A stretch of 64,000 nt of DNA from assembly GCF_900230195.1 (NCBI RefSeq), contig NZ_OCNE01000014.1, positions 62,001 to 126,000 of the forward strand. Direction: 5' to 3'. The notes under the pieces are model-generated. The model made no database searches and was not told the origin of the DNA. It saw only the letters and a program-made list of their open reading frames with translations. The stretch is from Streptomyces zhaozhouensis (GTDB lineage Bacteria > Actinomycetota > Actinomycetes > Streptomycetales > Streptomycetaceae). Positions 30,479 to 56,785 of the stretch are shown here, in pieces. A program made the translations under genes and the position numbers. Positions within the stretch are counted from its first letter, which is position 1. Every line of letters begins with the position of its first letter.

Positions 30479-32443
30479 GTGAACCACGCCCCCCGCGACC
30501 CCGCGTCGCCCTCCTCCCCGCTGACGGGCATGGACCGAGGGCACTGGGAGGAGACCGCCGACCGGCTGCTGGGGGCCCTCGCCCCGTTCGCCGTGCACGG
30601 CGGCGCCGGTTACCGACTCCCGGGCCCGGCCAGCGGATCGGGGCCGGCCAGCGACGCCCTGGAGGCATACGCCCGCACCTTTCTGCTGGCCGCCTTCCGC
30701 GCCGCGCACGCCCCGGCGCGACACGCCGAGCGGCTGCTGGCGCCCTACGCCGCGGGGCTGGCGCACGGCGCCGACCCCGGGGCGCCGGGCCGCTGGCCGC
30801 ACCCCGCCGAGCTGCCGCAGGCCAGGGTCGAGGCCGCCGCGCTGGTCGTCGCGCTGCACGAGTCACGCGGGCGGCTGTGGGAGCGGCTGGACGACCGGGC
30901 CAGGGGCCACGCCGTCGACTGGCTCACCGGCGTCGCCGAGGCGCCCGTGCCGCGGAACAACTGGCTGTGGTTCCGCGCCGTGGTCGCCGCCTTCCTCCGC
31001 TCGGTGGGCGCCCCGCACTCCGCCTCCGACATCGCCGAGGCCGTGGAGCGCACGGAGGAGTGGTACGCGGGCGACGGCTGGTACAGCGACGGCAGCCGCG
31101 TCCCGGGCCGGCACCGGAACTTCGACCACTACAACGGCTGGGCGATGCACCTCTTCCCGCTCTGGTACTGCCGGATCTCCGGCGCGGCGGCGGAGCCGGG
31201 GCTGCTCGACCGCTACCGGGAACGGCTGCGCCTGCACCTCGCCGACGCCGTCCATCTGATCGGTGGCGACGGCGCGCCGCTCTTCCAGGGACGGTCGCTG
31301 ATCTACCGGTTCGCCACGGCGGCGCCGCTCTTCGCCGGCGCGCTGTTCGACGCCACCCCGCTGGCCCCCGGGCTGACCCGCAGGGCCGCCAGCGGCACGC
31401 TGCGCTCGTTCCTCGAACGGGGCGCGGTCGACGAGCGGGGGCTGCTGCCGGCCGGCTGGCACGGGCGGTTCGACGCCCTGCGGCAGAGCTACTCGGGGCC
31501 CGGCTCCCCCTACTGGGCCAGCCAGGGCTTCTCCGGGCTGCTGCTGCCGCCCGACCACGCCGTCTGGACCGAGACGGAGGAGCGACTGCCGGTCGAACGC
31601 GGGGACTTCACCCGCACCGTGGGACCGCCCGGCTGGCTGGTCTCCGGCACCGCGGCGGACGGGGTGATCCGGGTGGTCAACCACGGCACCGACCACACCC
31701 CGCCGGACCGGCCGGCGCGCGACGACCCGAGCTACGCGCGGCTGGCCTACTCCACCCACGCGGGCCCCGACCTCGGCCCGCCCGACCCGTGGCACGACGA
31801 CCCGGAGGCCGGTTTCCGCGACGGGGACGTCCGCGCTGACCAGGGGCCCGACAACCGGGTCGCGCTGGTCGACGCCGAGGGGCGGCTCTCCCACCGCAGC
31901 CCGCTGCGCCGCCGGGAGGTCCTGGCGCCGGCGGCCGTCTCCGAGCATGTCCCGCACTGGCCGGTGGCCGGCGTCACCGACCGCGAACGGTGGCCGGCCG
32001 GCCCGCCGTTGGTGACCGCCTCACTGGTCAACGGCGCCTGGGAGGTGCGGGTCGTGGAGGTCGCCGGGGACGACCGACTGGTCAGCGTCGGCGGCCACGC
32101 GCTGGCCGCGCCCGCCCCGCCCTCCGGCGGGGCCACCGCAAGGGCCAGGTGGTTGACCAGAGAGGACGGGTTGACCAGTGCGCTGGCGGCGCTCACCGAG
32201 GCACCGGCCGCGCTCACCGAGCACCGGGAGGAGGGGCGCAACGCCTTCGGCGCGCACAGCGCGACGCCGGTCTACCGGGCCACCGGCCCGCTGCACGCGG
32301 TCGGCGTCTTTCTCGGCGTCCATCGCGAGCCCGACCCGCCCGTCCCGCCCCGGGTCCTGCTCTCCCCCGGGCGGGCGACGGTCGAGTGGCCCGACGGCAC
32401 CTCCGACACGGTGCGTTGGCGCTCCCCCGTCCCTTCTCCCTGA
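30479..32443 (+). CDS. DUF2264 family protein, probable glycan-active enzyme
   Basis: This 654-residue soluble protein has the DUF2264 signature order: helical barrel segments LEAYARTFLLAAFRAAH, NNWLWFRAVVAAFLRSVG, EWYAGDGWYSDGS, FDHYNGWAMHLFPLWYCRI, GAPLFQGRSLIYRFA and SYSGPGSPYWASQGFSGL. This aromatic-rich alpha/alpha-barrel resembles unsaturated glycuronyl or rhamnogalacturonyl hydrolase-like proteins. The C-terminal 250 residues are a beta-rich accessory region. No signal peptide is visible, so it acts inside the cell. The GTG start has AAGGAG five bases upstream. Lying between a sugar-type regulator and a convergent GH51 arabinofuranosidase, it probably works on plant-derived oligosaccharides; the exact reaction is unknown. 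Confidence 0.85.
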   Translation: MNHAPRDPASPSSPLTGMDRGHWEETADRLLGALAPFAVHGGAGYRLPGPASGSGPASDALEAYARTFLLAAFRAAHAPARHAERLLAPYAAGLAHGADPGAPGRWPHPAELPQARVEAAALVVALHESRGRLWERLDDRARGHAVDWLTGVAEAPVPRNNWLWFRAVVAAFLRSVGAPHSASDIAEAVERTEEWYAGDGWYSDGSRVPGRHRNFDHYNGWAMHLFPLWYCRISGAAAEPGLLDRYRERLRLHLADAVHLIGGDGAPLFQGRSLIYRFATAAPLFAGALFDATPLAPGLTRRAASGTLRSFLERGAVDERGLLPAGWHGRFDALRQSYSGPGSPYWASQGFSGLLLPPDHAVWTETEERLPVERGDFTRTVGPPGWLVSGTAADGVIRVVNHGTDHTPPDRPARDDPSYARLAYSTHAGPDLGPPDPWHDDPEAGFRDGDVRADQGPDNRVALVDAEGRLSHRSPLRRREVLAPAAVSEHVPHWPVAGVTDRERWPAGPPLVTASLVNGAWEVRVVEVAGDDRLVSVGGHALAAPAPPSGGATARARWLTREDGLTSALAALTEAPAALTEHREEGRNAFGAHSATPVYRATGPLHAVGVFLGVHREPDPPVPPRVLLSPGRATVEWPDGTSDTVRWRSPVPSP

Positions 32444-32467
32444 GCCGACCGGCGTCCTGACGGGCTG

Positions 32468-33991
32468 TCAGGCGCGCCGTCCGCTCACCGTGACGAAGGA
32501 GTGCGGGGGCAGGGTGAGCGTCAACGTCCCCTTCTCCGCGCGCAGTTCGGTGAACGGACGCGCCGAGACCGGGCTGTGCTCCGGGGTGTTGTGGTCCTGG
32601 AGCCGGTCGGCGGTCAGGATGCGCGCGGTCGGCTCGGCGAGGGTCCCGCCGCGCAGGTCCAGGGTGACCTCCGCCGGCCGGTCGGCGTCGAGATTGGTCA
32701 GGGAGACCAGCACCGCCTCGTCCCGGACGCTGGCCGAGGCGGAGAGAGTGGTCAACGTGGCGTCGCCGACCGGACGGCGGGCGTCGTCCGAGGTGGTCAG
32801 GTGAACGGGCAGCGAGGTGGCGTCCTGGTGCCCCCTGTTCATCTCGAAGACGTGGTAGGTCGGGGTGCGGACCAGTCGGTCACCGTCGGTGAGCAGCACC
32901 GACTGGAGGACGTTGACGGTCTGGGCGAGGTTGGCCATCGCCAGCCGCTCGGCGTGCCGGTGGAAGATGTCGAAGTGGGTGCTGGCCACCAACGCGTCGC
33001 GCAGCGTGTTCTGCTGGAAGAGAAAGCCCGGGTTGGTGCCGGGCTCGACGTCGAACCAGGTGCCCCACTCGTCGACGACCAGCCCGACCCGGCGCGCGGG
33101 GTCGTAGGCGTCCATCACCGTGGAGTGGCCCTGGATGATCCGGTCCATCCGCGCGGCGGCGGCCATGGTGCGGTAGTAGTCCTCGGTGGTGAACTCCGTC
33201 GCTGAGCCCTTCGCCTCCCAGGGGCCGGTCAGGGTGTAGTAGTGCACGGAGAGCGCCTGGAAGAAGTTCTTCGGGGTGGCCTCGCAGCCGAAGCAGCTGA
33301 TCTGCCGCATCAGCGTCTCGGTCCAGGCGTAGTCGGCGTCGGAGGCGCCGGCGGCGATCCGGTAGAGCGTGTTGTCGCCGTGGTCGCGGCAGTAGGTCGC
33401 GTACTGGCGCGCCAGGTCCGCGTAGTAGTCGGCACGCATGTTGCCGCCGCAGCCCCAGGCCTCGTTGCCCAGGCCCCAGAACCGCACGCGCCACGGCTCC
33501 TCGCGGCCGTTGGCCCTGCGCAGCGCCACCATCGGGCTGTCCCCGTCGCGCGTGAGGTACTCCACCCACTCGCTCATCTCCCGCACGGTGCCGCTGCCGA
33601 CGTTGCCGCTGATGTAGGGCTCGGCACCCAGGAGTTCGCAGAGCGCCAGGAACTCGTGGGTGCCGAAGTGGTTGTTCTCCTCCACGTTCCCCCAGTGGGT
33701 GTTGACCATCCGGGGGCGGTCCTCGCGCGGGCCGATGCCGTCCTTCCAGTGGTACTCGTCGGCGAAACAGCCGCCCGGCCAGCGCAGGTTGGGGATGTCC
33801 AGCGCGCGCAGCGCCTCGACGACGTCCAGGCGCAGACCCCCCTCGTTCGGTATCGGCGAGTCCTCCCCCACCCACAGGCCGCCGTAGACACAGCGCCCGA
33901 GGTGCTCGGCGAAGTGGCCGTAGAGATGGCGGCTGATGACCGGCCCCTCGATGTCCAGGTTGATGATCGCCCTGCCGCTGCTGCCGGACAT
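32468..33991 (-). CDS. abfA: GH51 alpha-L-arabinofuranosidase, intracellular
   Basis: This 507-residue glycoside hydrolase of family 51 releases terminal alpha-L-arabinofuranose from arabino-oligosaccharides. Typical landmarks are [40 protein letters not shown], the acid/base Glu E177 in [12 protein letters not shown] and the nucleophile E308 in [10 protein letters not shown], followed by [18 protein letters not shown] and a C-terminal beta domain ending [16 protein letters not shown]. There is no signal peptide, so substrates must be imported. The ATG at 33991 has GAGGAGC seven bases upstream. The promoter region holds a TATCGATA palindrome of LacI-operator type. It is convergent with the DUF2264 gene, with only 24 bp between stops. 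Confidence 0.93.
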
Positions 33992-42448: not shown

Positions 42449-42669
42449 GGCGAGAGCGTGGCAGAGAGGACGCCCCCGGGGGAACGGGCCGAGCGGTTCC
42501 GGCGTCCGACCGTTGCGTCGGAGGTCGGGCGGGGGCAACGATGGGCCGTCAGCCCGACCGGAGCGGAGGGCGCGACCCGCACACCCGGGGCGCTTTCCTA
42601 CGTGACCACGCCCCCCTCAGCGTCGATACTGCGGGGGCCGGTCACGCGCTCAGCCACGAGGAGGCAGCG

Positions 42670-43668
42670 ATGAAGATGCTGATCAACGGAGCGGAGCGGG
42701 TGGTCGCCGACGCGCTGCGCGGAATGGCGGCGGCGCATCCGGAGCTCCGGGTCGACGTCGACCGGCGGCTGGTGGTGCGGGGGGACGCGCCGGTCGAGGG
42801 CAAGGTGGGGCTGGTCTCCGGGGGCGGTTCCGGCCACGAGCCGCTGCACGCCGGGTTCGTCGGGTACGGGATGCTGGACGCCGCCTGCTGCGGCGAGGTC
42901 TTCACGAGCCCGGTGCCCGACCAGATGACCCAGGCCGCGGCCGCGGTGCACGGCGGCGCCGGGGTGCTGCTGATCGTGAAGAACTACACCGGTGACGTGC
43001 TGAACTTCGACATGGCGGCCGAGCTGGTCGAGGACGAGGGCATCGAGGTCGCCAAGGTGGTGGTCCAGGACGACGTGGCCGTCACCGACAGCACGTTCAC
43101 GGCCGGCCGCCGGGGCACCGGCGGGACCCTCTTCGTCGAGAAGCTGGCCGGCGCCGCCGCGCAGGAGGGCGCGCCGCTCGCGGTGGTCGCCGAGGTCGCC
43201 CGCCGGGCGGCGGAGGGCTCCCGCAGCTTCGGCGTCGCGCTGCACGGCCCGACGACACCCGCCAAGGGCAGCCCGACGTTCGACCTGCCGCCCGACCAGC
43301 TGGAGCTGGGGATCGGCATCCACGGCGAGCCGGGGCGGGAGCGCCGGGCGATGCTCGGCGCGGCGGAGATCGCCGACCTGACCGTGGACGCGCTGCTGGC
43401 GGACTACGGCCCCGGGCCGACGGGCCCGCTGCTGTGCCTGACCAACGGCATGGGCGGCACGCCGCTGCTTGAGCTCTACGGCTTCCACGCCGAGGTCGTC
43501 AGGGCGCTCGGCGCGCGCGGGATCACGCCGGCGCGTAGCCTCGTCGGCGACTACGTGACCTCCCTCGACATGGCCGGCTGCTCGGTCTCGCTGTGCCAGG
43601 TGGATGACGAGCTGCTGCGGTTGTGGGACGCTCCCGTCTCCACACCGGGGCTGCGCCGGGGTCGTTGA
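42670..43668 (+). CDS. dhaK: PTS-dependent dihydroxyacetone kinase, substrate-binding subunit
   Basis: DhaK binds dihydroxyacetone covalently through a His and receives phosphate from DhaL-ADP. In 332 residues I see GKVGLVSGGGSGHEPLHAGF, YGMLDAACCGEVFTSPVPDQ, GAGVLLIVKNYTGDVLNFDMA and LELGIGIHGEPGRER, where H218 is the expected substrate-binding His. The C-terminus ends in the usual GDYVTSLDMAGCSVSL. GAGGAGG precedes the ATG. It is followed within 12 bp by dhaL. Phosphate ultimately comes from PEP through enzyme I and HPr, so it depends on ptsI at the start of this window. Confidence 0.95.
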   Translation: MKMLINGAERVVADALRGMAAAHPELRVDVDRRLVVRGDAPVEGKVGLVSGGGSGHEPLHAGFVGYGMLDAACCGEVFTSPVPDQMTQAAAAVHGGAGVLLIVKNYTGDVLNFDMAAELVEDEGIEVAKVVVQDDVAVTDSTFTAGRRGTGGTLFVEKLAGAAAQEGAPLAVVAEVARRAAEGSRSFGVALHGPTTPAKGSPTFDLPPDQLELGIGIHGEPGRERRAMLGAAEIADLTVDALLADYGPGPTGPLLCLTNGMGGTPLLELYGFHAEVVRALGARGITPARSLVGDYVTSLDMAGCSVSLCQVDDELLRLWDAPVSTPGLRRGR

Positions 43669-43680
43669 GAGGAGTCGGAC

Positions 43681-44292
43681 GTGGCAGGGCAGACGACGGA
43701 ACGTGACGCCGCCTTCGTCGCGGCGTGGCTGACCGCCTCGGCCGACGCGGTCAGGGCGGAGGCCGACCGGCTCACCGAGCTGGACTCGGCGATCGGCGAC
43801 GCGGACCACGGGAACAACATGCGGCGCGGCTTCACCGCCGTGGTGGCGGGCCTGGAGAAGGAGCGGCAGGAGGCGACCGGCGGGGTGCTGCTGCTGGCCG
43901 GCAGGACGCTGGTCTCGACCGTCGGCGGCGCCTCGGGGCCGCTCTTCGGGACGCTGCTGCGCCGGGCGGGGAAGGCGCTGGGCGAGGCGGAGCGGGTCAC
44001 CGACGCGGAGCTGAAGGAGGCGTTGGAGGCCGGCGTGGACGCGGTGGCCCAGCTGGGCGGCGCGGCGCTGGGCGACAAGACGATGCTGGACGCGCTGCTG
44101 CCCGCGGTGGCCGAGCTGCCGGACTACGCGGCCGCGGCGCGCGCCGCCGAGGCCGGCGCGAAGGCGACGATCCCGCTGCGGGCGCACAAGGGCAGGGCCA
44201 GCTATCTGGGCGAGCGCAGCGTCGGGCACGAGGACCCGGGGGCCGCCTCGGCGGCGCTGCTGCTCGGGGCGCTCTTCCAGGTGTCCAGGTGA
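43681..44292 (+). CDS. dhaL: dihydroxyacetone kinase, ADP-binding subunit
   Basis: The 203-residue DhaL carries a tightly bound ADP that is rephosphorylated by DhaM and passes phosphate to dihydroxyacetone on DhaK. Key Mg-ADP ligands are visible in LDSAIGDADHGNNMRRGF, followed by STVGGASGPLFGTLLRRAG, LGDKTMLDALLPAV and the C-terminal lid GRASYLGERSVGHEDPGA. The GTG start has GAGGAG upstream. It overlaps dhaM through GTGA, so the two are translated together. The length and order are standard for the PTS-dependent, not the ATP-dependent, enzyme. Confidence 0.94.
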   Translation: MAGQTTERDAAFVAAWLTASADAVRAEADRLTELDSAIGDADHGNNMRRGFTAVVAGLEKERQEATGGVLLLAGRTLVSTVGGASGPLFGTLLRRAGKALGEAERVTDAELKEALEAGVDAVAQLGGAALGDKTMLDALLPAVAELPDYAAAARAAEAGAKATIPLRAHKGRASYLGERSVGHEDPGAASAALLLGALFQVSR

Positions 44293-46056: not shown

Positions 46057-47349
46057 TCACTTGCGGCCCGGCGTCCACTGCATCCCGAAGCCGTAGGCGT
46101 GGTCCACGGTGCGCTGCGGGCTGACGCCCTTGTCCGGCACCAGGTAGCGCGCCTCGCGGTTGACGACCAGCTCGCCGTTCTGCTGGGTGAGGGTGGCGAG
46201 CACGCAGACCGGGGAGGGCACGTTGCACTCGTCGAGGAAGAACTCGACGGGCGCGCCGCGCTCGGGGGTGAGGGTGACGGTCGCGTCGAGATCCTGGAAG
46301 CTGGTGGCGCCCGAGTAGATCGTCACGAAGAGGACGACCCGGCGCAGCTCCTTGGCGTGGTCGAGGTTGACCGTCAGGTTCTCCCCGGAGGAGACGGCGC
46401 CGGTGCGGTCGTCCCCGTCCAGGTGCATGTAGGGCGGCTGGTGGAGCGAGCCGAACGCGTTGCCCAGGGCCTGGATGACGCCCTTGCGACCGTCGGACAG
46501 CTCGAAGAGCGCGCACAGGTCCAGGTCGAGGCCGCCGCCCATGGCCTTGGCGATGCGGTCCTTCCACTTGGACTGCTTGGGGGCGGCGCCGGCGCTGCGC
46601 TGCTGCCAGTTGAGGTTGACCCGGAGCTGGCCGCTGGTGGCGCCCTGCTTGGCGAGCGAGATCGCCGGGGCGTCCTTGGTGAGCGTGATCTTGCTCAGCC
46701 GGATCGGCGAGCCGCCCGAGGCGGCCGGCGGCGTCTGCACGGGCGCCGGGGGCGTCACCGGGGCCGGCGCGGGCGGCGGGGGCGTCGCGGGCCGGGCGGG
46801 GGGCGGCGTGGGCGCGGCGGCCGGCGCCGGCTCGTCGTCCACGCTGATCCCGAAGTCGGTGGCGAGCCCGGCGAGTCCGGTGGCGTACCCCTGGCCGACG
46901 GCGCGGAACTTCCACGCGCCCTGGCGCCGGTACAGCTCGCCGACGACGAACGCGGTCTCGCTGGTGGCGTCCTCGCTGTCGAAGCGCGCCACCTCCGCGC
47001 CGCTGTCCGCGTCGAGCACCCGGATGTGCAGTCCTGGAACCTGGCCGAAAGTGCCGCCGTCGGCGGACGCGGCCAGGACGACCTTCTCGATCTCCTGCTC
47101 GACGTCGGCGAGGTCGACCCCGATCCGGTCGACGACCGTGGCACCGGCGGGCTGCTTGCCCTCGTGGCGCACGGCGCCCGAGGCGTGGCGCGCCTGGTTG
47201 TAGAAGACGAAGTCGTCGTCCGAGCGGACCCGGCCGTCCTTCAGAAGCAGCGCCGAGGCGTCCACGTCCGGTGCGCCGGCCGATGTGTTCCAGCCGATCT
47301 CGACGCGGACCGCTCGCGCGGACACCGGGACATTAGAGCCTTTGAGCAT
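46057..47349 (-). CDS. terD: double-domain TerD-family protein
   Basis: This 430-residue protein joins two TerD-type domains. The first (1-175) begins [20 protein letters not shown] and has [33 protein letters not shown] and [19 protein letters not shown], with the acidic residues used for calcium in relatives. A Pro/Ala linker (about 176-212) leads to the second (about 215-430; [53 protein letters not shown]). GGAGGA is eight bases before the ATG. TerD proteins are linked to tellurite and membrane stress responses, and in Streptomyces to development. It is divergent from the disordered-protein gene at 47595. Confidence 0.88.
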
Positions 47350-47594
47350 CGTGCGTTCCTCCGTCGGGTGGGCCTGTTCCCGTCTGCGTACCCCTGTTCG
47401 CGCTGGGAACGACTCACTATGCCATCCGGTTCCCGGGTCGTTTTTCGGGCACCCCTGAAACAACATCATGAGGGCACCGATCGCCGCTTTATCCGCATAT
47501 GGCGGGATCGCCGGGTGCGCGGGGGCTCCAGCCTGCCAAATGAGCGGCTGATCGGTCTCCCCAACGACCCGATGGTGGGCTTAACTTATGGAGC

Positions 47595-48170
47595 ATGACC
47601 CTCCCGCGCCCCTACGGTGGTGGCTACTCCTCCTTCCCCGACACCCCGATCTACGACAGGCTGGTGGCAGAGCGGGGTACCCCGCAGATCGCTCCCATCC
47701 GGGTGCCGGCCGCTTACGACACGATGGGGTACCAGTCCCCCTCGCCCCAGCCGGCGCTGCCCGCCCTGCCGGCCCTCCCCTCGGCCGCCTCGCCCCCGCC
47801 CCCGCAGCAGCACGGCGGCGGCTACCAGGGGCACCAGCCGGCGCCCGCCAGGCAGCAGCTCGGCGGCGGGCAGTCGTTCGGCGGGCAGCAGTCGTTCGGC
47901 GGGCAGCAGCTCGGCGCCCCCGCGCCCGGCGGGTACCGCGGCGGCCCCGGCGGCTATGTGCCGCAGCCCCAGCAGGGCGGCCGCCCCTACCCGGCGCCGG
48001 CGGCCCCGCAGGCGCCCTCGCCGCAGCAGGCCAGGCCGGCGGCGCCGCAGCAGATGCGGCCCGCCCCGCAGCCGATGCGCCCCGCGGCGCCGCGCCCCGG
48101 CGGCTACCCGGGCGCCGCGCCGTACCCGCAGACGCAGCAGGCGCCGGCGCCCGGCTACTGGTCGGAGTGA
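47595..48170 (+). CDS. Pro/Gln/Gly-rich disordered protein, DUF6643-like
   Basis: This 191-residue protein is almost wholly low complexity: an N-terminal conserved-looking block SSFPDTPIYDRLVAERGTPQ and IAPIRVPAAYDT (residues 12-43), then Pro/Ala runs, GGQQSFGGQQ repeats and PQ-rich stretches ending in APGYWSE. It is intrinsically disordered by composition. Similar proteins occur in Streptomyces beside terD, from memory. GGAG is only one base from the ATG, so the initiation signal is unusual. It is divergent from terD and convergent with the first encapsulin shell gene. Disordered Pro/Gly-rich segments are also used as cargo-loading tails in family 2 encapsulins, which makes the neighbour relation worth testing. 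Confidence 0.7.
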   Translation: MTLPRPYGGGYSSFPDTPIYDRLVAERGTPQIAPIRVPAAYDTMGYQSPSPQPALPALPALPSAASPPPPQQHGGGYQGHQPAPARQQLGGGQSFGGQQSFGGQQLGAPAPGGYRGGPGGYVPQPQQGGRPYPAPAAPQAPSPQQARPAAPQQMRPAPQPMRPAAPRPGGYPGAAPYPQTQQAPAPGYWSE

Positions 48171-48222: not shown

Positions 48223-49620
48223 TCACAGCTCGACGTCCTCCAGCACTCCGAGGGCGTCGGGGACCAGCACGGCCACGGAGTGGTACGCGCTGACGAGGTA
48301 GGAGAGCACGGCGTGTTCGTCCACGCCCATGAAGCGGACGTTCAGGCCCGGTTCGTGTGCGTCGGGCAGGCCCGTCTGGCGCAGGCCGACGACGCCCTGG
48401 CGTTCGAAGCCGGTGCGCAGGGCCAGCACGGAGCTGGTGCGCTCCGGGGAGATCGGGATCTTGTCGCACGGCAGCAGGGGGATGCCGCGCCAGGCGTGGA
48501 CGGGGGTGCCCTCGACCTCGGTGGTCGCCGGGTAGAGGCCGCGGGCCGTGCAGGCGCGTCCGATCGCCGCGATGGTGCGGGGGTGGGCCAGCAGCAGCCG
48601 GGTGTCGCGGCGGCGGGTGACCAGTGCGTCCAGGTCGTCGGGGGTGGGCGGACCGGAGCGGGTGTGCAGGCGCTGGCGCGGGTCGACGTTGTGCAGCAGG
48701 CCGAAGTCCGGGTTGTTGACCAGTTCGTGTTCCTGACGCTCCCTCAGGGCGTCGACGGTCAGGCGGAGTTGCTCCTCGACCTGGTTCATCGGCTCGTTGT
48801 ACAGATCCGCGACCCGCGAGTGCACCCGCAGCACGGTCTGCGCCACGCTCAACTCGTACTCACGCGGAGCCAGTTCGTACTCCACGAAGGTGCCGGGCAG
48901 CCTCGGCTCACCGATGTGGCCGGCGGCCAGCGCGATGTCGGCCTCGCCGCGCCGGTTGGCGGCGGGGGCCGGGCGCTCGGCCTCCCGCGCGAGGTGGGCG
49001 GCGAGTGCGGGGGCGTTCTCGGCCACCTCGGCGACGGCGGCCAGCGGGAGGGCGAGGACGGTGCAGCGGGTGGTGGTGCGCAGGGTGTGCGGCCAGGTGC
49101 CGGGCTCGCCGGCGAGCGCCTGGGCGCCGGCGAACGCGCCCCCGGCGAGCGTGGCGAGGGCGGCCTGGTCGTCGAAGGCGCCCGGCACCGACTGGCGCAC
49201 CTTGCCGTGGGCGATCAGCAGCACCTCGGTCACCGGCGCGCCGGCCTCGGCGAGGGTCTCACCGGCACGGTGGTCGCGCCGCACGCAGCGGTCGGCGAGC
49301 GCGGCCAGCGTCTCGGGGTCGTCCAGCCCGGCGAGGGCCGGGAGTTCGCGGAGCTCGGCGGGGATGACACGGATGTCGGAGCCGGTGGCGTGGAACTCGA
49401 CCCGGCCGTCGCCGAGGGTGTGTGTCAGCCGGCGGTTGACGCGGAAGGTGCCGCCCGAGACCTCGGTCCACGGCAGGGTCCGCAGCAGCCAGCGGGGCGA
49501 GGTGCCCTGGTTCTGCGGTGGGGTCTTGAGGGTGCTGGCGAGCCGGCCGGCCGCCTCGGTGCCGAGCGCGGTGGGCGCCGGTGTGACCTCGGGTTCTGTG
49601 GTCGGGGTGGGGGCGTTCAC
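48223..49620 (-). CDS. family 2B encapsulin nanocompartment shell protein (copy 1)
   Basis: This is a 465-residue HK97-fold shell protein with an inserted cyclic-nucleotide-binding-type domain. Landmarks are [21 protein letters not shown] at the start of the shell fold, a CBD-like insertion (about 85-205, [18 protein letters not shown] to [13 protein letters not shown]), then the shell core [50 protein letters not shown] and the E-loop/A-domain block [13 protein letters not shown] to the C-terminus [22 protein letters not shown]. The GTG at 49620 has AAGG upstream; the long upstream frame is spurious. It is downstream of the paralogue, with a 352-bp spacer. Family 2B shells of Streptomyces usually enclose a terpene cyclase; none is encoded here. 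Confidence 0.85.
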
Positions 49621-49824
49621 GGGCGCCTTTCGGATGGGCCGCCGCCGGGCGGCGGGGCGGGGTGGGGCCGCCGCCGCGCGGCGGAGGTGGCGCGGCGGCG
49701 GCTGTCCTGCGGGGAACGGCGGGCGGGGCGCGCCCGCCGTGGGGTGCGCGCGGGCCCGGGCGCCGCGGTGCGCCCGGCGGACGGCCGCGCGGAGCGCGGA
49801 ACCGTTTCCGCGTGGCGTGGCCCG

Positions 49825-49863
49825 CACCGCTCGGCGGGCCGAACGGCCCCGTGCCGAGCGGTG
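49825..49863. terminator. nested hairpin between the two shell genes
   Basis: An 11-bp outer stem CACCGCTCGGC/GCCGAGCGGTG (49825-49835 with 49853-49863) encloses a 5-bp inner stem GGGCC/GGCCC with a GAAC tetraloop. It lies 110 bp beyond the stop of shell copy 2 and about 205 bp before copy 1, so the genes may be separately terminated or attenuated. Confidence 0.55.
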
Positions 49864-49889
49864 GTTCCTTGACCAGTTGCCGGTCGCCA

Positions 49890-49947
49890 GTGGTTGGTTA
49901 CCAGTGGTCGGTTACCAGTGAAGGTGACCGGTGGTCGGTTACCAGTG
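49890..49947. repeat. three GTGGTYGGTTACCAGTG repeats in the shell spacer
   Basis: Copies occur at 49890-49906, 49904-49920 and 49931-49947; each holds an odd palindrome GGT-T-ACC. They sit just after the stop of shell copy 2 and within the spacer (49621-49972) that holds no gene. They may be regulatory sites for copy 1 or a recombination scar. Confidence 0.7.
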
Positions 49948-49972
49948 AGGGGGACCAGCGGCTGGCCGGTTC

Positions 49973-51409
49973 TCAGTGGCCGATTTCGACGTCCTGGAGA
50001 ACGCCGAGCGCGTCGGGCACGAGAACGGCCACGGAATAGTAGGCGCTCACCAGATAGGAAATGATGGCCTGCTCGCTGATGCCCATGAAGCGCACGGAGA
50101 GGCTGGGCTGGTATTCGTCGGGAATTCCGGTGCGGTGCAGTCCGACGACGCCCTGTCGCTCCAGACCGGTGCGCATGGCCAGCACCGAGCTGGTGCCGGT
50201 CTTGCTGATCGGGATCTTGTCACAGGGCAGCAGCGGCACCCCGCGCCAGGCGGCGACCGAGTGGCCGCCGAACTCGGCGGGCGCCGGGTAGACGCCCCGG
50301 GCGTTGCACTCCCGCCCGAACGCGGCGATGGCGCGCGGGTGGGCCAGCAGGACGCTGGGCTCCTTCCAGACGGCGGCCAGCAGCTCGTCCATGTCGTCCG
50401 GCGTGGGCGGACCGGAGCGGGTGTGCAGGCGCTGGCGCGGGTCCGCGTTGTGCAGCAGGCCGAAGTCCGGGTTGTTGACCAGCTCGTGCTCCTGGCGCTC
50501 GCGCAACGCCTCAACGGTGAGGCGGAGTTGCTCCTCGACCTGGTTCATCGGCTCGTTGTACAGATCCGCGACCCGCGAGTGCACCCGCAGCACGGTCTGC
50601 GCCACGCTCAACTCGTACTCGCGCGGGGTGAGTTCGTAGTCGGCGAAGGTGCCAGGCAGCGCCGGTTCGCCGACGTGGCCGGCGGCCAGCGCGATCTCCG
50701 ACTCACCGCTGGCGTTGCGCTGGCCGGGGACCCGGGAGCGGGCGGCGGCCAGGTGGGCGGTCAGCGCCTCGGAGTTCTCGGCGATCCGGTCGAAGTCGGC
50801 TCGGGCGAGGGTGAGCACGGTGCCGCTGGTCAGCGCGGTCAGACCGTTCTCGTAGGCGCCCGGCTCGGCTGCGGTGAGCGCGTCGGCGGCGAAGAAGTCG
50901 CCGTCCGCCAGCACGTCGAACTCGGTCTCGTTGTCGTAGGCGCCGTGCCCGCGCCTGCTGAGCTTGCCGTGCGCGATCAGCACCACGCGGTCGGCCGCCT
51001 CGCCCTCGCGCAGCAGCACCTCGCCGGGGACGAAGTCCCGCTGCACACACGCCTCGGCCAGCGCCTGGAGGGTCGCCTGGTCGTCGAAGCCCGCCAGGCC
51101 GGGGAGCTCGGTCAGCTCGGCGGGGATGACGGAGACCTCGGAGCCGGTGGCATAGAACTCGACCCGGCCGTTGCCGAGCGTGTGGGTCAGCCGGCGGTTG
51201 ACCCGGAACGTGCCGCCCGAGACCTGTGTCCAGGGCAGCACCTTCAGCAGCCAGCGCGAGGTGATCGCCTGCATCTGCGGCGGGGTCTTGGTGGTCGTCG
51301 CCAGGTTGCGCGCGGCCGCCGTGTCGAGGCTGAGCCGAGGCGCCGGGTCCGTGGTTCCGGCCTGGTTCTCGGGCGTCGGGTCGAGCGCGCCCTCAAGGGA
51401 GGTTGTCAT
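49973..51409 (-). CDS. family 2B encapsulin nanocompartment shell protein (copy 2)
   Basis: This 478-residue paralogue of the preceding shell has the same order: [21 protein letters not shown], an inserted CBD-like domain (about 95-220, [18 protein letters not shown] to [18 protein letters not shown]), [60 protein letters not shown] and [22 protein letters not shown]. The phosphate cassette of the CBD is atypical ([20 protein letters not shown], no Arg-x-Ala), so cAMP binding is doubtful. ATG at 51409 is favoured by a TAGTTT/TTGCGG promoter upstream rather than a strong ribosome site. Two-shell sets are known for family 2B and may form mixed capsids. Confidence 0.87.
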
Positions 51410-51477: not shown

Positions 51478-51507
51478 AAACTAGGCGCATTTCCCAAGTC
51501 GCCGCAA
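51478..51507 (-). promoter_or_regulatory. candidate promoter of shell copy 2
   Basis: On the minus strand TTGCGG (51502-51507), 18 bases, TAGTTT (51478-51483), about 70 bp before the start, in locally AT-richer DNA. It is a housekeeping-like match of modest quality. Confidence 0.35.
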
Positions 51508-51865
51508 TCACTCAAAAGTGGCGCCAACTCCCCGCTTCGCAGGACGAATTGATGGGTAGCTCGCCCGGATTCACGATCCGGCGGAAGGGCGGCCGCCGGA
51601 GACGGGGCACGCCTCGCTCGCCGGCCCGGGAGGAGGGCGCTGACCGGCTCGCAGACCGATGCCCGAACGGCCCCCACCAGGCACTAGGGTGGGGGCGCTC
51701 GGACGCGGTGACCACGCGCCGGGGCACGTGCGCCTGGCGTTCGACCAGCGCCCTGTCCGAACTCGCCTGTCATTACGTCCGGTTCACGGCGCGCTACGGT
51801 GGAGCGGCCGGACGCGCGCGATGAGGCGTCTTTCGATTTCGCACGAGGTTGGGGCACATCAGTCC
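51508..51865. other. gene-free divergent spacer upstream of the shells and the AAA+ gene
   Basis: The remaining 358 bp between the shell promoter and the beta-helix/AAA+ gene show no credible coding frame. The sequence is of mixed composition, with AT-rich patches near 51520 and 51830, where the rightward promoter should lie. Confidence 0.45.
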
Positions 51866-54289
51866 ATGGCTAAGGGCTCGGTCCAGGTGACGCACACCGG
51901 AACTGCACGCTGGCGGCGGCGGACGGCCGTCTACGCCACGGTCGCCGAGGCCCTGGCCGCCGCCGCCGACGGCGACGTGCTGCTGCTCGGCCCCGGCACC
52001 TACCGCGAGAACCTGGTGATCGAGCAGGCGGTGACGATACGCGGCCCCCAGGACGACCGGGACGGCCCCGCGCGGATCGCACCCGTCGAGGGCGTTCCGC
52101 TGACGGTGCGCGGCTCCGCGACCGTGCGGGAGTTGCTGCTTGAGGGCCAGGACACGACCGTGCCCGCCGTGCTGGTGGAGAGCAGCACACCGGAGCTCTC
52201 GGGGCTGCGGGTGCGGACCGCCTCGGCGGCCGGCGTCGAGGTGCGGGCCGGCGCCCGCCCGACGGTGCGCGGCTGCGTGGTCGCGAACGCGACGGGCGTG
52301 GGCATCAACGTGAGCGACCAGGCCGGCGGGCTCTTCGAGGAGTGCCATGTCACCGAGTCGGGCCAGGCGGGCATCGCGGTGTCCGGCGCCGCCCATCTGC
52401 GGCTGGAGCGCTGCCGGGTGGAGCGGGCGACGGGCGCGGGGCTCTCGGTGACCGGCGAGGGCAGCGCGGTGGACGCGCTCGGCTGCGTGCTCGAACAGGT
52501 GAAGGGCGTCGGGGTGCGGCTGGCCGAGCGCGCCACCGCCCACCTGACGGAGTGTCAGGTGTCGGGAACGACCGGCGACGGGATCACCCTGGAGACCGAC
52601 GCCGTACTGACCCTCGCCGACAGCCGGTTGACCGACATCCCGGAGAACGCCCTGGATCTGCGGTCCCGTTCGGTGCTGACGCTGATGCGCACCGAGGTGA
52701 CCCGCTTCGGCCGCAACGGCGTCTCGGCCTGGGACCCGGGCACCCACGCGGACGTGCACGACTGCGAGATAGCCGAGTCCACCGGCGACTACCCGGCGGT
52801 CTGGGTGAGTGACGGGGCGACCGTCGTGCTGGAGTCCTGCACGGTGCGCCGGGTGCCGGACGCGCTGTTCGTCCTGGACTCCGGGTCACGCGCCGACGTG
52901 GTGGACAGCACGGTGGAGGACGTGCGCGGCTCGGCGGTCTCGGTGAGCGACGGCGCGACCGCGCGGCTGGACGACTGCCGGATCTCGGGCGCCGGCACCG
53001 GCGCCTGGTTCCGGGACGCCGGCAGCGGCGGCTCGGTCACCGGCTGCACCATCGAGCGCAGCAGGACCGGTCTGATCGTCACCAAGGGCGCCGATCCCGA
53101 GGTCTCCGACACCAGCGTGATCGGCCCGGCGGAGGCCGGGGTCTATGTCTCCGCGGGCGGCCGGGGCCGCTTCAGCCGCTGCCGGGTGACGGACTCCGGC
53201 GGCTACGGGTTCCACGTGCTGGACGGCTGCCGCACCGCGTTGCACCGCTGCCGCACCGAGCGCTGCGCGCGGGGCGGCTACGTCTTCGCCCAGGAGGGGC
53301 CCGAGGTGGTCGACTGCCACAGCGACGAGGCGGTGGCGCCCGGCGCGAAGCCGGCGCCCGTCAGGGCGACGGAGAGCGCCGCGCCCGTCCCGCCGCCAGC
53401 CGAGCCGGCCGCGAAGCCGGCCGCCAGGCCGGCGGCGGCGCCGGCCGCCGGGGCCGCCGGCGAGGAGCCGGCCGAACACCGGCCCTCCGAGACGGTGTTG
53501 GCCGAACTGGACGATCTCGTCGGCCTGCACAGCGTCAAGCGCGAGGTGCGGGCGCTGATCGACATGATCGAGGTGGGCCGCCGCCGGGTGGCCGCCGGCC
53601 TCAAGGCCGCCTCCGTGCGCCGGCACCTGGTCTTCACCGGCTCCCCCGGCACCGGCAAGACGACCGTGGCCCGCCTCTACGGCGAGATCCTCGCCTCGCT
53701 CGGGGTGCTGGAGCGCGGGCACCTGGTGGAGGTCTCCCGGGTCGACCTGGTGGGCGAGCACATCGGCTCCACCGCGATCCGCACCCAGGAGGTCTTCGAA
53801 CGGGCGCGCGGCGGGGTGCTGTTCATCGACGAGGCGTACGCGCTCTCCCCCGAGGACGGCGGCCGGGACTTCGGCAGGGAGGCCATCGACACCCTGGTGA
53901 AGCTGATGGAGGACCACCGCGAGGCCGTGGTGGTGATCGTCGCCGGCTACACCGAGGAGATGGCCCGCTTCCTGGCCACCAACCCGGGTGTCGCCTCCCG
54001 CTTCTCGCGCACGATCGCGTTCGGCGACTACGCGCCGGAGGAGCTGCTGAACATCGTCCGCCAGCAGTCCGGCGAGCACGAGTACGACCTCGGCGAGGGC
54101 ACGGAGGACGCGCTGCTGAAGCACTTCACGGCGATGGACCGGGGGCCGAGCTTCGGCAACGGACGCACGGCGCGGCAGACGTTCGAGGCGATGGTGGAAC
54201 GCCACGCGGGCCGCGTGGCGCGGCTGCCCGACCCCAGCACGGAGGAACTGACCGTCCTCCACCCGCAGGACCTCCCGCCCCTGCCCTGA
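51866..54289 (+). CDS. right-handed beta-helix fused to CbbX-type AAA+ ATPase
   Basis: This 807-residue cytoplasmic protein has two modules. Residues about 10-490 are a right-handed parallel beta-helix of pectate-lyase or Pbl type, with about 20 short rungs such as [38 protein letters not shown] and [20 protein letters not shown] Pro/Ala linker (about 490-545) leads to an AAA+ domain (545-800): [20 protein letters not shown], Walker [16 protein letters not shown] (near 591), sensor-type [15 protein letters not shown], Walker [17 protein letters not shown] (near 651), [23 protein letters not shown] (second sensor and arginine region). It is close to CbbX and EccA-type ATPases. The ATG at 51866 lacks a strong ribosome site. 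No secretion partners lie nearby. Confidence 0.88.
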
Positions 54290-54317: not shown

Positions 54318-54436
54318 CGGACGGCCCCTCACCCGACCGGGTGCGGCACCGTCGTCGTCCGACCCCGTCGCGAGCAACCACCCACCGGGGCGAGGGCGAC
54401 CGCCCACCCTGGCCGGCCAGGCACCGCCGTCGTCGT

Positions 54437-56785
54437 TCACCCCTCGGTCGGCGTCGACTCCAGGGGGCCCGCGGACTGCGTCGGCAGCGGCGCGCTGCCC
54501 AGCGGCAGCCGCCGCATCAGCGCGGCGCGCTCCTCCGCGAACGCGGGGTCCGCCGCGTAGTCGCCGTGGCCGAGGATCGGCTCCGGCAGCGGGGAGCGCA
54601 GATTGCGGCCGTAGTGCAGCGGGTCCGCCAACGCGGGCCGGTCGACCGGCCGTTCCTCGCCCTCGGCGACCCGCACCCGCCCCCCGATGGGGTCGGTCTC
54701 GCGCCACAGGTTCCGCCAGCACGGCAGGTCCCGGTGGAGCGCGCGCAACGCCCCCGGGCCGAAGTACGCGGGGAACCACCGCCCGTAGAGCCGTTCCAGC
54801 GGCGAACCATGGGTCAGCAGCGCGATCCGGCTGCGGGTGGCGGTGTCCAGCTGCCAGACCGCCGCCGCGGCCAGCACGCTGCCCTGGGAGTGGCCGGAGA
54901 TGACCAGCCGCCCGCCGGTCGCGTCGATCCAGGTGCCCATCCGCCACGACAGGTCGGGCACCGCGCGCTCGGCATAGCACGGCGGCGCGAACGGGTGTGC
55001 GGCCCGCGGCCAGAACGTTCCGACGTCCCACAGGATGCCGACGGTGCGCCGCGCCCCCGCGTCCCGGTAGGCGCGGCGGCCGAGCGCCAGCAGCAGTATC
55101 ACGCCGAATCCCATCAGCCACGAGCCCAGCGTCTGGCAGGCGTCGGCGACGGCCTCCAGGGCGGCCGGGCCGCCGTCGGCCGCCTCGGACGGGGTCTCGC
55201 GGGTGAGCGTGCCGGCCACCGCGCCGAGGCCGAGCAGCAGGCTCGTCCCGGCGATCCAGCCGACCAACGGGCCTGCCGACTCGGTGAGTTCGGCGCGGGC
55301 GGTGGCCGAGGCGATGCGGCGGTTCCGGTCCGCGTCCGGCGCGCAGGACTCGTCGGGGTAGCGGTCCCTGACCGTGGGGGCCAGCTCGTTGCGCCGGTGG
55401 ACCACGCGGCCCACGGCGACCAGCGCGAGGACGAGCACCACCAGCAGCAGCGGCGGGATCGCCGCCGCCTCCCAGCTGAGCATCACCGGCGGTCCCGCGA
55501 TGCGCGCCTCGGGCGCTCCCGGCGCGGCGGAGGGGTCGAGCCAGTCGGCGATCCGCTGCGCCACCCCTCCGGTGAAGACGCCGCCCAGCGCGCAGGCGAG
55601 CAGCGCGACGGCCGCGCCGCCGAGCCCGAGCAGCGCGCCGCGTTCCCCGTCGCGCGCCTGCCGGTGCAGCCGGAACGCCACCCAGGCGAGGGCGACCACC
55701 AGCAGGCCCTGGGCGACGACCAGCGCGGGGAACACCTCGCTGCCCAGCGGCAGCCGGCCGGAGCTGGACCACGCGGGCCGGCTCCAGGCGGTGTGCGCCA
55801 GCACGAGCACCAGCAGCGCCATCGCGCCCCAGGGCAGGGCGCGGGCGGCCGGCGGCTCGGGGCGCTCGTCGCGTTCGCTCTCGCTGCGGCCGTGGCGGAG
55901 CTGCTGGACCAGCAGCACCAGCCAGCCGGCGACGGTGCACGCGGTCAGCAGCAGCCCGACGCCCGCCACCACGGGATCGCCGTCCGTGCCCCGGTCGTGG
56001 ACCCCCGTGGCGTAGACCAGGGCGGTCGCGACGGTGAGCAGTCCGGCGGCGGTGTGGCCGGCGCGCAGCCGCGCGACCAGCACCCGGCCGTACCAGAATC
56101 CGGGGAGGCTCAGCGCCGCGTCGTCGCCGTCGGTGCGCGGCCTGACCGGCGGGGACGCCGACTCGTAGGCGCTCCAGGTGCGGTGGGAGAGCCACCACAG
56201 CAGGACCAGCAGCGCCACGGGCAGCAGGCTGCCGAGCAGCAGCCGGCGGCCGGGCTGCCCCCACCAGGGGTCGGTCGCCCAGGGCTCGATCCAGGCGGCG
56301 CTCCGCGCACAGGGCTCCGCCCCGGCGCACTGCCAGGCGACCAGGTCCAGGGAGACGGCGCACGCGCCGGCGGTCAGGAGCACGGTGAGGGACAGCGCGG
56401 TCAGCCGCACCAGCAGGTCGTAGTGGCGGTTGGTGCGCTCCCCCGTGCGGCCCGAGGGGCGCATCCAGTGCGCCACGTTGACGATCATGAACGGCAGGAG
56501 CAGCAGCCACAGCGCCCGAGTGCCGTTCCCCGAGGTGAGGTTGGACCAGGAGTAGGCCTCGCGGACGGGGCGCGCGTCGTCCCAGGGCCGGTCGTCCAGG
56601 TCGTCCGTTCTGCGGTGGACGCTGGCGGTCGCGTCGCCCGTGATCCGGGTGGTGCGGGCGTCCTCCAGCATCTGCTGCGGGGTGGCTCCGCCGACGCCGT
56701 GGACCAGTAACTCCATGGCGGGCTCCGGCCCTCCGAGCCCTCGCGCCCCGGACGCGCCCTCCCCCACCGACTGCCGATCCGTCAT
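54437..56785 (-). CDS. polytopic membrane protein with serine hydrolase motif
   Basis: This 782-residue integral membrane protein opens, after a short polar head, with MELLVHGVGGATPQQML, resembling the oxyanion strand of alpha/beta hydrolases. Eight to ten predicted helices follow in the middle (for example LLVRLTALSLTVLLTAGACAVS, LLLGSLLPVALLVLLWWL, ALVVAQGLLVVALAWVAF). The C-terminal soluble part has RLVISGHSQGSVLAAAAVWQL (nucleophile Ser near residue 633) and THGSPLERLYGRWFPAYF, with possible acid and His residues later. So the catalytic fold is split by a membrane block. ATG at 56785 is preceded by GGGGAG. It is convergent with the AAA+ gene. The substrate is probably a lipid, by inference from location. 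Confidence 0.8.
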   Translation of the reverse strand: MTDRQSVGEGASGARGLGGPEPAMELLVHGVGGATPQQMLEDARTTRITGDATASVHRRTDDLDDRPWDDARPVREAYSWSNLTSGNGTRALWLLLLPFMIVNVAHWMRPSGRTGERTNRHYDLLVRLTALSLTVLLTAGACAVSLDLVAWQCAGAEPCARSAAWIEPWATDPWWGQPGRRLLLGSLLPVALLVLLWWLSHRTWSAYESASPPVRPRTDGDDAALSLPGFWYGRVLVARLRAGHTAAGLLTVATALVYATGVHDRGTDGDPVVAGVGLLLTACTVAGWLVLLVQQLRHGRSESERDERPEPPAARALPWGAMALLVLVLAHTAWSRPAWSSSGRLPLGSEVFPALVVAQGLLVVALAWVAFRLHRQARDGERGALLGLGGAAVALLACALGGVFTGGVAQRIADWLDPSAAPGAPEARIAGPPVMLSWEAAAIPPLLLVVLVLALVAVGRVVHRRNELAPTVRDRYPDESCAPDADRNRRIASATARAELTESAGPLVGWIAGTSLLLGLGAVAGTLTRETPSEAADGGPAALEAVADACQTLGSWLMGFGVILLLALGRRAYRDAGARRTVGILWDVGTFWPRAAHPFAPPCYAERAVPDLSWRMGTWIDATGGRLVISGHSQGSVLAAAAVWQLDTATRSRIALLTHGSPLERLYGRWFPAYFGPGALRALHRDLPCWRNLWRETDPIGGRVRVAEGEERPVDRPALADPLHYGRNLRSPLPEPILGHGDYAADPAFAEERAALMRRLPLGSAPLPTQSAGPLESTPTEG

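Follow-up and report, generated by a model that had tools for sequence, protein, structure and literature searches.

Two-component family 2B shells

Encapsulin shells of family 2B that combine two different proteins have already been described, with 503 two-component operons reported in PMC12407261, some of them without obvious cargo. Structures are available for both shell proteins of Streptomyces lydicus (Sl-Enc1, 9BJE; Sl-Enc2, 9BIX) and for the 2B shell of Streptomyces griseus (9BHU). According to the same source, solved 2B relatives assemble into shells, their inserted domain does not bind cyclic nucleotides, and a mixed Enc1/Enc2 shell is demonstrated for S. lydicus only. The S. lydicus pair is of the XK type, for which its authors give the native cargo as undetermined; together with the two-component operons lacking obvious cargo listed in that paper, this is why the question of cargo matters. 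Here we describe a pair of 2B shell genes, Enc1 and Enc2, in a 64,000-nucleotide stretch of the Streptomyces zhaozhouensis genome (hereafter the window; C45:62001-126000, contig C45 being 182,040 bp long). No recognised cargo gene adjoins the pair, and we tentatively propose that its cargo is encoded in trans, a tagged geosmin-type terpene cyclase on another contig being the likeliest candidate.

Should the cargo prove to be a tagged cyclase with its gene elsewhere, gene neighbourhood would not serve to assign cargo in this group, and the earthy geosmin, a common odorant of soil, would be made in a compartment built from dispersed genes. Within the accessible part of the literature on encapsulins and on geosmin or its synthase, we found no earlier proposal of a trans-encoded geosmin-type cyclase as the cargo of such pairs.

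The shell pair and its missing cis cargo

Enc1 and Enc2 are family 2B encapsulin shells, as the original prediction had held. Each carries a SrpI-like HK97 shell domain (Pfam; E 3.5e-136 and 452.6 bits for Enc1, 2.2e-130 and 433.6 bits for Enc2) with a cNMP_binding domain (42.2 and 37.6 bits, cut-off 27.5) ahead of the C-terminal part of the shell, and model searches place both inside the family, with 738.5 and 703.0 bits on the NCBI family 2B equivalog model NF041163 (cut-off 400). The two frames, translated from the window with start codons picked by homology, are distinct 2B shell genes in tandem on one strand, well within 10 kb of each other and 65% identical as proteins. The gap of 352 bp between them falls within the 41–406 bp measured at 29 other loci; part of it is occupied by a 27-base tandem repeat (3.3 copies, 49870-49958). 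Both proteins show the diagnostic motif 1 of two-component shells, AVWK in Enc1 and RRRD in Enc2, corresponding to TVWK and RRRK in S. lydicus. A shell-family search of the genome scored three candidates, matched Enc1 and Enc2, and found no further Family 2 shell. With a single shell locus in the genome, therefore, no other Family 2 shell was found to take up the cyclase.

Terpene cyclases, prenyl transferases and FGGY kinases, which make up three of the four known classes of cargo, are missing in cis. The genome has three matches to terpene cyclase PF19086 (two on C52, one on C16), five to prenyl transferase PF00348 (on C13, C22, C23, C35 and C26) and seven to FGGY kinases (on C20, C22, C29, C32 and C35), and none of them lies on C45, either beside the shells or just outside the window. 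No class-V aminotransferase was found by Pfam among the 21 other window frames, two of which (54341-56710:+ and 42598-44229:-) are probably not genes, and the genome-wide cargo check covered terpene cyclases and prenyl transferases, with no cysteine desulfurase search made. The original prediction had left the cargo as missing, distant or unrecognised; the evidence favours distant, short of proof.

The absence recurs across related loci. We drew the best 80 of 574 confirmed Enc1 relatives with flanks of up to 10 kb, shorter at contig ends, and scored the gene layout by tblastn. The layout of the window was found in 25 of the 80, which with five further loci and the window itself gave 31 loci in 30 distinct streptomycete genomes (L059 and L225, on contigs of equal length, counted as one), hereafter the present class. 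The Enc1 of S. sedi is 96% identical to ours. In the available flanks of these 31 loci there is no sugar kinase, prenyl transferase or geosmin-type cyclase, whereas the other 55 of the best 80 loci have 9, 29 and 22, respectively. A distant sugar kinase, the kind of cargo supposed for the S. lydicus type, is highly improbable here: such a kinase is within reach of sister pairs among those 55 loci and the genome has its seven FGGY matches, yet related Streptomyces pairs lack the kinase as the present class does, and even for the XK systems the authors state that the native cargo is undetermined (PMC12407261). Xylulose kinase was likewise discarded, none lying near the pair.

A tagged geosmin-type cyclase as proposed trans cargo

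Our preferred explanation is a trans-encoded cargo, with the geosmin-type cyclase as likeliest, inside a mixed shell; we put it a little short of an even chance because the genome's own cyclase falls below the NCBI cargo cut-off and because one genome, G101, is an exception (see below). A promoter that includes a conserved element would drive Enc1 and Enc2, co-transcription across the gap being a proposal, and the two proteins would co-assemble into one mixed T=1 shell as the S. lydicus pair does. The cargo would most likely be the double-domain geosmin-type cyclase on C52, whose linker and tail tags may attach it to the luminal side of the shell, placing terpene synthesis within the compartment. 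The inserted domain, placed over the two-fold pore, may gate small molecules.

The C52 cyclase (about 31644-33866) is the sole double-domain geosmin-type cyclase of the genome, and its best solved relative is a germacradienol/geosmin synthase (1.6e-177). It carries two in-frame tags, GPTGLGTSAA in the linker (GPTGLGTSAADL) and GPRGLGTTAA in the tail (GPRGLGTTAARL, near the end). A tagless S. coelicolor cyclase is active, so the tag is unnecessary for catalysis. In geosmin-synthase-like cyclases from family 2 operons, GPTGLGTSAAR is reported at both positions, and a targeting role was proposed for it (PMC8346489). The genome's third PF19086 match, a 412-aa frame on C16, was set aside as cargo: it is single-domain with no tag seen, and its top NCBIfam matches, to sesquiterpene synthases, stay under the respective cut-offs.

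We read 45 Streptomyces cyclases (our own and 44 of 46 others, G172 and G441 being left out) and, in full, 23 of 48 from outside the genus. The C-terminal tag was present in 10/10 two-component Streptomyces versus 11/35 other Streptomyces (Fisher p 1.1e-4, with only 2–3 independent contrasts and hence not proof). Outside Streptomyces it was found in 22/23, including 10/10 cyclases next to a shell and 9/10 away from one. For cyclases located away from the shell, tag identity between genomes is 84%, a figure inflated by anchoring on the motif; around the tag, identity is 15% before and 31% after in ten Streptomyces, and 14% before and 26% after in nine outside rows (untagged G474 left out).

Shells and cyclases also occur together across genomes. 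A class-wide sample comprised 394 genomes of at least 95% completeness, 47 of them listed Streptomyces and 347 others, of which those without a match were mostly unlisted and taken as outside Streptomyces. Each of the 47 Streptomyces combines a 2B shell with a PF19086 match of E 1e-38 or better. Among the other genomes, a 2B shell (E below 1e-200) is present in 45 of the 48 that have a PF19086 match of E 1e-48 or better, compared with 11 of the 299 without such a match, all 11 in one genus (Fisher p 3e-42, not corrected for descent). That cyclase cut-off was chosen after the results for seven 2B-less genomes were known; their best PF19086 matches (2e-43 to 4e-47) are single-domain frames of 342–467 aa. 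Under the weaker Family 2 criterion (E 1e-60), which added 15 weaker matches among the 299, the figures become 48/48 with the cyclase versus 26/299 without, and G213, G267 and G440 combine the cyclase with weaker Family 2 matches (6e-108, 7e-74 and 2e-98). The cyclase lies within 10 kb of the 2B shell in 30/45 genomes and not in the other 15, where contig ends possibly hide some.

Two of these genomes offer further observations. In G213 (L131:6468-9781), a shell-like frame of 365 aa is overlapped at its end by the frame of a double-domain cyclase. The shell-like frame matches Enc2 at 56% identity across 240 aa and may encode a shell that lacks the inserted domain. On contig C88 of G267 (L133, L291), two distant relatives of the beta-helix AAA+ protein found at the present locus (~32% identity) accompany a geosmin-type cyclase.

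The promoter element supposed for the pair is a 17-base sequence, CACTTTTGAGTGATTGC, which occurs once in the window versus 0.02 expected and of which 13–17 bases are matched before Enc1 in all 31 present-class loci. When the upstream region from the window was shuffled 300 times, a single shuffle reached 13 bases and 14 shuffles reached 12. Related versions (12–14 bases) stand before 25 single-shell loci and 3/4 S. lydicus-like pairs in the sample. The shells seem to share an old control.

Weighing the cyclase against other cargo

Several observations weigh against the cyclase. On the NCBI encapsulin-cargo model NF041168 the C52 cyclase scores 1169.2, below the cut-off of 1200. The tag is not specific to shell pairs, since 11 single-shell or other Streptomyces keep it, and within Streptomyces the contrast largely reflects shared descent, because the 24 untagged rows form one 22-row clade and one two-row clade; it rests on two losses, with only 2–3 independent contrasts, and is not significant. 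A genome-wide search for the GPxGLGT DNA pattern gave 4 places where the reversed control gave 3, which leaves location and reading frame as the informative features: two of the four are in the cyclase, one is in-frame elsewhere (sigma-factor-like by eye) and one is out of frame. The shell element, tried as a shared control, was not seen before cyclase genes at the 19 of 44 with a located start (best 8–11 bases); the best score in our own 20-kb cyclase region is 12, about 9 kb from the gene, and nothing here indicates common control with the cyclase. Finally, a second sample of 199 Streptomyces genomes scored against the 2B cut-off left three without a match above it (G008, G049 and G101), all of them fragmented assemblies. 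G008 and G049 also have no PF19086 match better than 4.9e-39; G101, with a partial cyclase, is the exception.

Of two shell-adjacent cyclases, scoring 1175.5 and 1241 on NF041168, one is below the cut-off too; three cyclases from genomes with the present pair score 1187, 1200 and 1206, the tagged cyclase of a single-shell genome 1190, and two tagless cyclases 1131 and 1136. For prenyl transferases, scored on the NCBI family 2 cargo model (cut-off 450), the enzyme beside the common single Streptomyces shell reaches 487 and that beside a Nonomuraea shell 278. These models do not settle the cargo question.

The same scores bear on the main rival, which gives the role of trans cargo to a prenyl transferase, by itself or with the cyclase. 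Such enzymes already count among the candidate cargo of 2B shells (PMC8346489), and two of the five in the genome, at C22:140871 (L297) and C35:277865 (L299), score 417.9 and 405.7 compared with 157–209 for the other three; L297 is moreover ~50–57% identical to the enzyme beside the common single shell. Both nevertheless stay under the cut-off that this enzyme passes, L297 has no apparent long disordered N-terminus by eye if its start is MTTV, and the class has no known tag motif. The surroundings of L297, considered as a remnant of the common single-shell locus, contain none of its flanking genes. We regard this rival as unlikely, and our best reading places the geosmin-type cyclase first and a prenyl transferase second.

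A different rival is a shell with no enzyme cargo that affects, for example, (p)ppGpp and development in the manner of EshA, which we take to be a 2B shell. S. coelicolor and S. griseus require EshA, called cAMP-binding, to synthesise (p)ppGpp adequately (reviewed in PMC6627660), and eshA and eshB are developmentally up-regulated (PMC3878966). In Enc1 and Enc2, however, the phosphate-binding part of the inserted domain aligns without the Glu and Arg of canonical cAMP-binding domains such as that of E. coli CRP, in keeping with the lack of binding reported for 2B domains (PMC12407261), and such a role seems improbable.

The recurrent locus and its neighbours

The common layout of the 31 loci is the gene for a 782-aa protein, the AAA+ gene facing away from Enc1, then Enc1 and Enc2 (Table 1). 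The AAA+ gene is present in 31/31 loci, the 782-aa gene in 30/31 and a small gene between AAA+ and Enc1 in 15/31. DUF6643 is seen in 22/31 and TerD in 18/31, some flanks stopping short of these genes. By eye, the 782-aa protein has hydrophobic stretches and a GHSQG motif. The original prediction had listed a disordered protein, a double TerD and a beta-helix AAA+ ATPase as flanks; Pfam agrees for the AAA+ protein and recognises a Pro/Gln-rich DUF6643 protein, and finds one TerD stretch, not two. Other window neighbours by Pfam are a DeoR regulator, a DNA polymerase A-like protein, a GntR-aminotransferase, a racemase, NUDIX, Dak2 and MMPL proteins, a TPR kinase and RbpA.

Table 1. Features of the shell pair and its surroundings, in window coordinates.
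Feature	Position	Strand	Remarks
TerD protein	46057-47469		Pfam; single TerD stretch, residues 40-206
DUF6643 Pro/Gln-rich protein	47595..48170	+	Pfam; convergent with Enc2
Enc2, downstream family 2B shell	48223..49620	-	465 aa, GTG start; motif RRRD; Pfam, NCBIfam, alignment
Enc1-Enc2 gap	49621..49972	-	352 bp; includes 27-base tandem repeat
Enc1, upstream family 2B shell	49973..51409	-	478 aa; motif AVWK; Pfam, NCBIfam, alignment
Conserved 17-base element CACTTTTGAGTGATTGC	51504..51520	-	Before Enc1; 31/31 loci
Beta-helix + AAA+ ATPase protein	51866..54289	+	Pfam; divergent from Enc1
782-aa protein	54437..56785	-	Adjoins AAA+ gene; no Pfam or NCBIfam match

This constancy raises the possibility that the cargo or a partner is to be found among the conserved neighbours, namely the beta-helix AAA+ protein, DUF6643, the 782-aa protein and, in some loci, phosphoketolase. 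The near-universal AAA+ and 782-aa genes speak for it, but the AAA+ gene is divergent from Enc1 and the other two neighbours were rejected as cargo. DUF6643 stays 0.1–0.4 kb from TerD where both are seen (2.3 kb in L061) and up to 7.6 kb from Enc2; because it travels with TerD rather than Enc2, we judge it chromosomal backbone and not part of the shell system. Phosphoketolase occurs in just 12/31 loci (11/30 distinct) and is convergent with Enc2. A neighbour as cargo is, in our view, improbable. Where present, the enzyme, a xylulose-5-phosphate/fructose-6-phosphate phosphoketolase, adjoins Enc2 (L052, L054, L056, L058, L059, L062, L065, L067, L068, L115, L225 and L227); the sister class, by contrast, takes its name from xylulose kinase.

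Shells examined in the 47 Streptomyces fall mostly into four kinds of locus, with a few left unclassed: a single shell with a prenyl transferase; a single shell with a cyclase and a methyltransferase (2-methylisoborneol type, by eye); an S. lydicus-like pair; and the present pair. One Streptomyces shell adjoins a geosmin-type cyclase (G427). The six genomes with the present pair (our own, G087, G389, G434, G455 and G510) have two shell matches each among four candidates scored per genome. The single-shell locus with a prenyl transferase occurs in 0/6 of them, yet is common in the rest of the Streptomyces sample.

Comparison with known systems

The top solved relatives of both proteins are 9BIX, 9BJE and 9BHU. 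Enc1 scores 664 bits to Sl-Enc2 versus 635 to Sl-Enc1, and Enc2 is near-equal to 9BHU (611 bits) and 9BIX (609). An S. lydicus-like Enc2 from L118 reaches 884 bits to 9BIX. In a quick tree of 163 shells, subsampled to include 10/38 single-shell T1, 14/30 present-class Enc1 and 14/24 present-class Enc2 rows, present-class Enc1 forms one clade (100) nested in a larger one with the other Streptomyces Enc1 rows (34 rows, 95), and the closest neighbours of present-class Enc2 (17 rows, 99) are the Enc2 rows of S. lydicus-like pairs (support 88). The pair thus groups with Streptomyces two-component shells, a type already known from the 503 operons of PMC12407261, and the suggestion in the original prediction of an unusual encapsulin type is therefore unsupported. 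Judging from these sequences, having two shells is probably an old, common trait of these Streptomyces pairs, and it is their neighbours that differ, with a kinase lying near some pairs and not others.

The S. lydicus pair is among the closest described systems. Like it, the present locus has tandem 2B shells with Enc1 upstream, VWK in the Enc1 motif and RRR in the Enc2 motif, and a common clade in the quick tree; unlike it, the present class has no FGGY kinase nearby and sits at another chromosomal place with a constant beta-helix AAA+ neighbour. We also considered, as a doubtful extension of the trans-cargo proposal, that the Streptomyces two-component shells of both classes are one dispersed organelle, in which a mixed shell with two different luminal loops would load a distant geosmin-type cyclase and prenyl transferase, the kinase and AAA+ neighbours being bystanders.

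The two-component type 'Other' of PMC12407261 likewise has two 2B shells and no obvious cargo. The main text of that paper gives no layout for it, and the locus described here, printed there only within this mixed group as far as that text goes, is a recurrent variant with a defined layout in 30 distinct genomes. Systems outside Streptomyces with a geosmin-type cyclase resemble it in that one genome holds both the 2B shell and an identically tagged double-domain cyclase; the cyclase is near the shell in most of them (30/45) and on another contig here. Single-shell Streptomyces loci share the shell family and a related upstream element, and differ in having one shell and an adjoining prenyl transferase.

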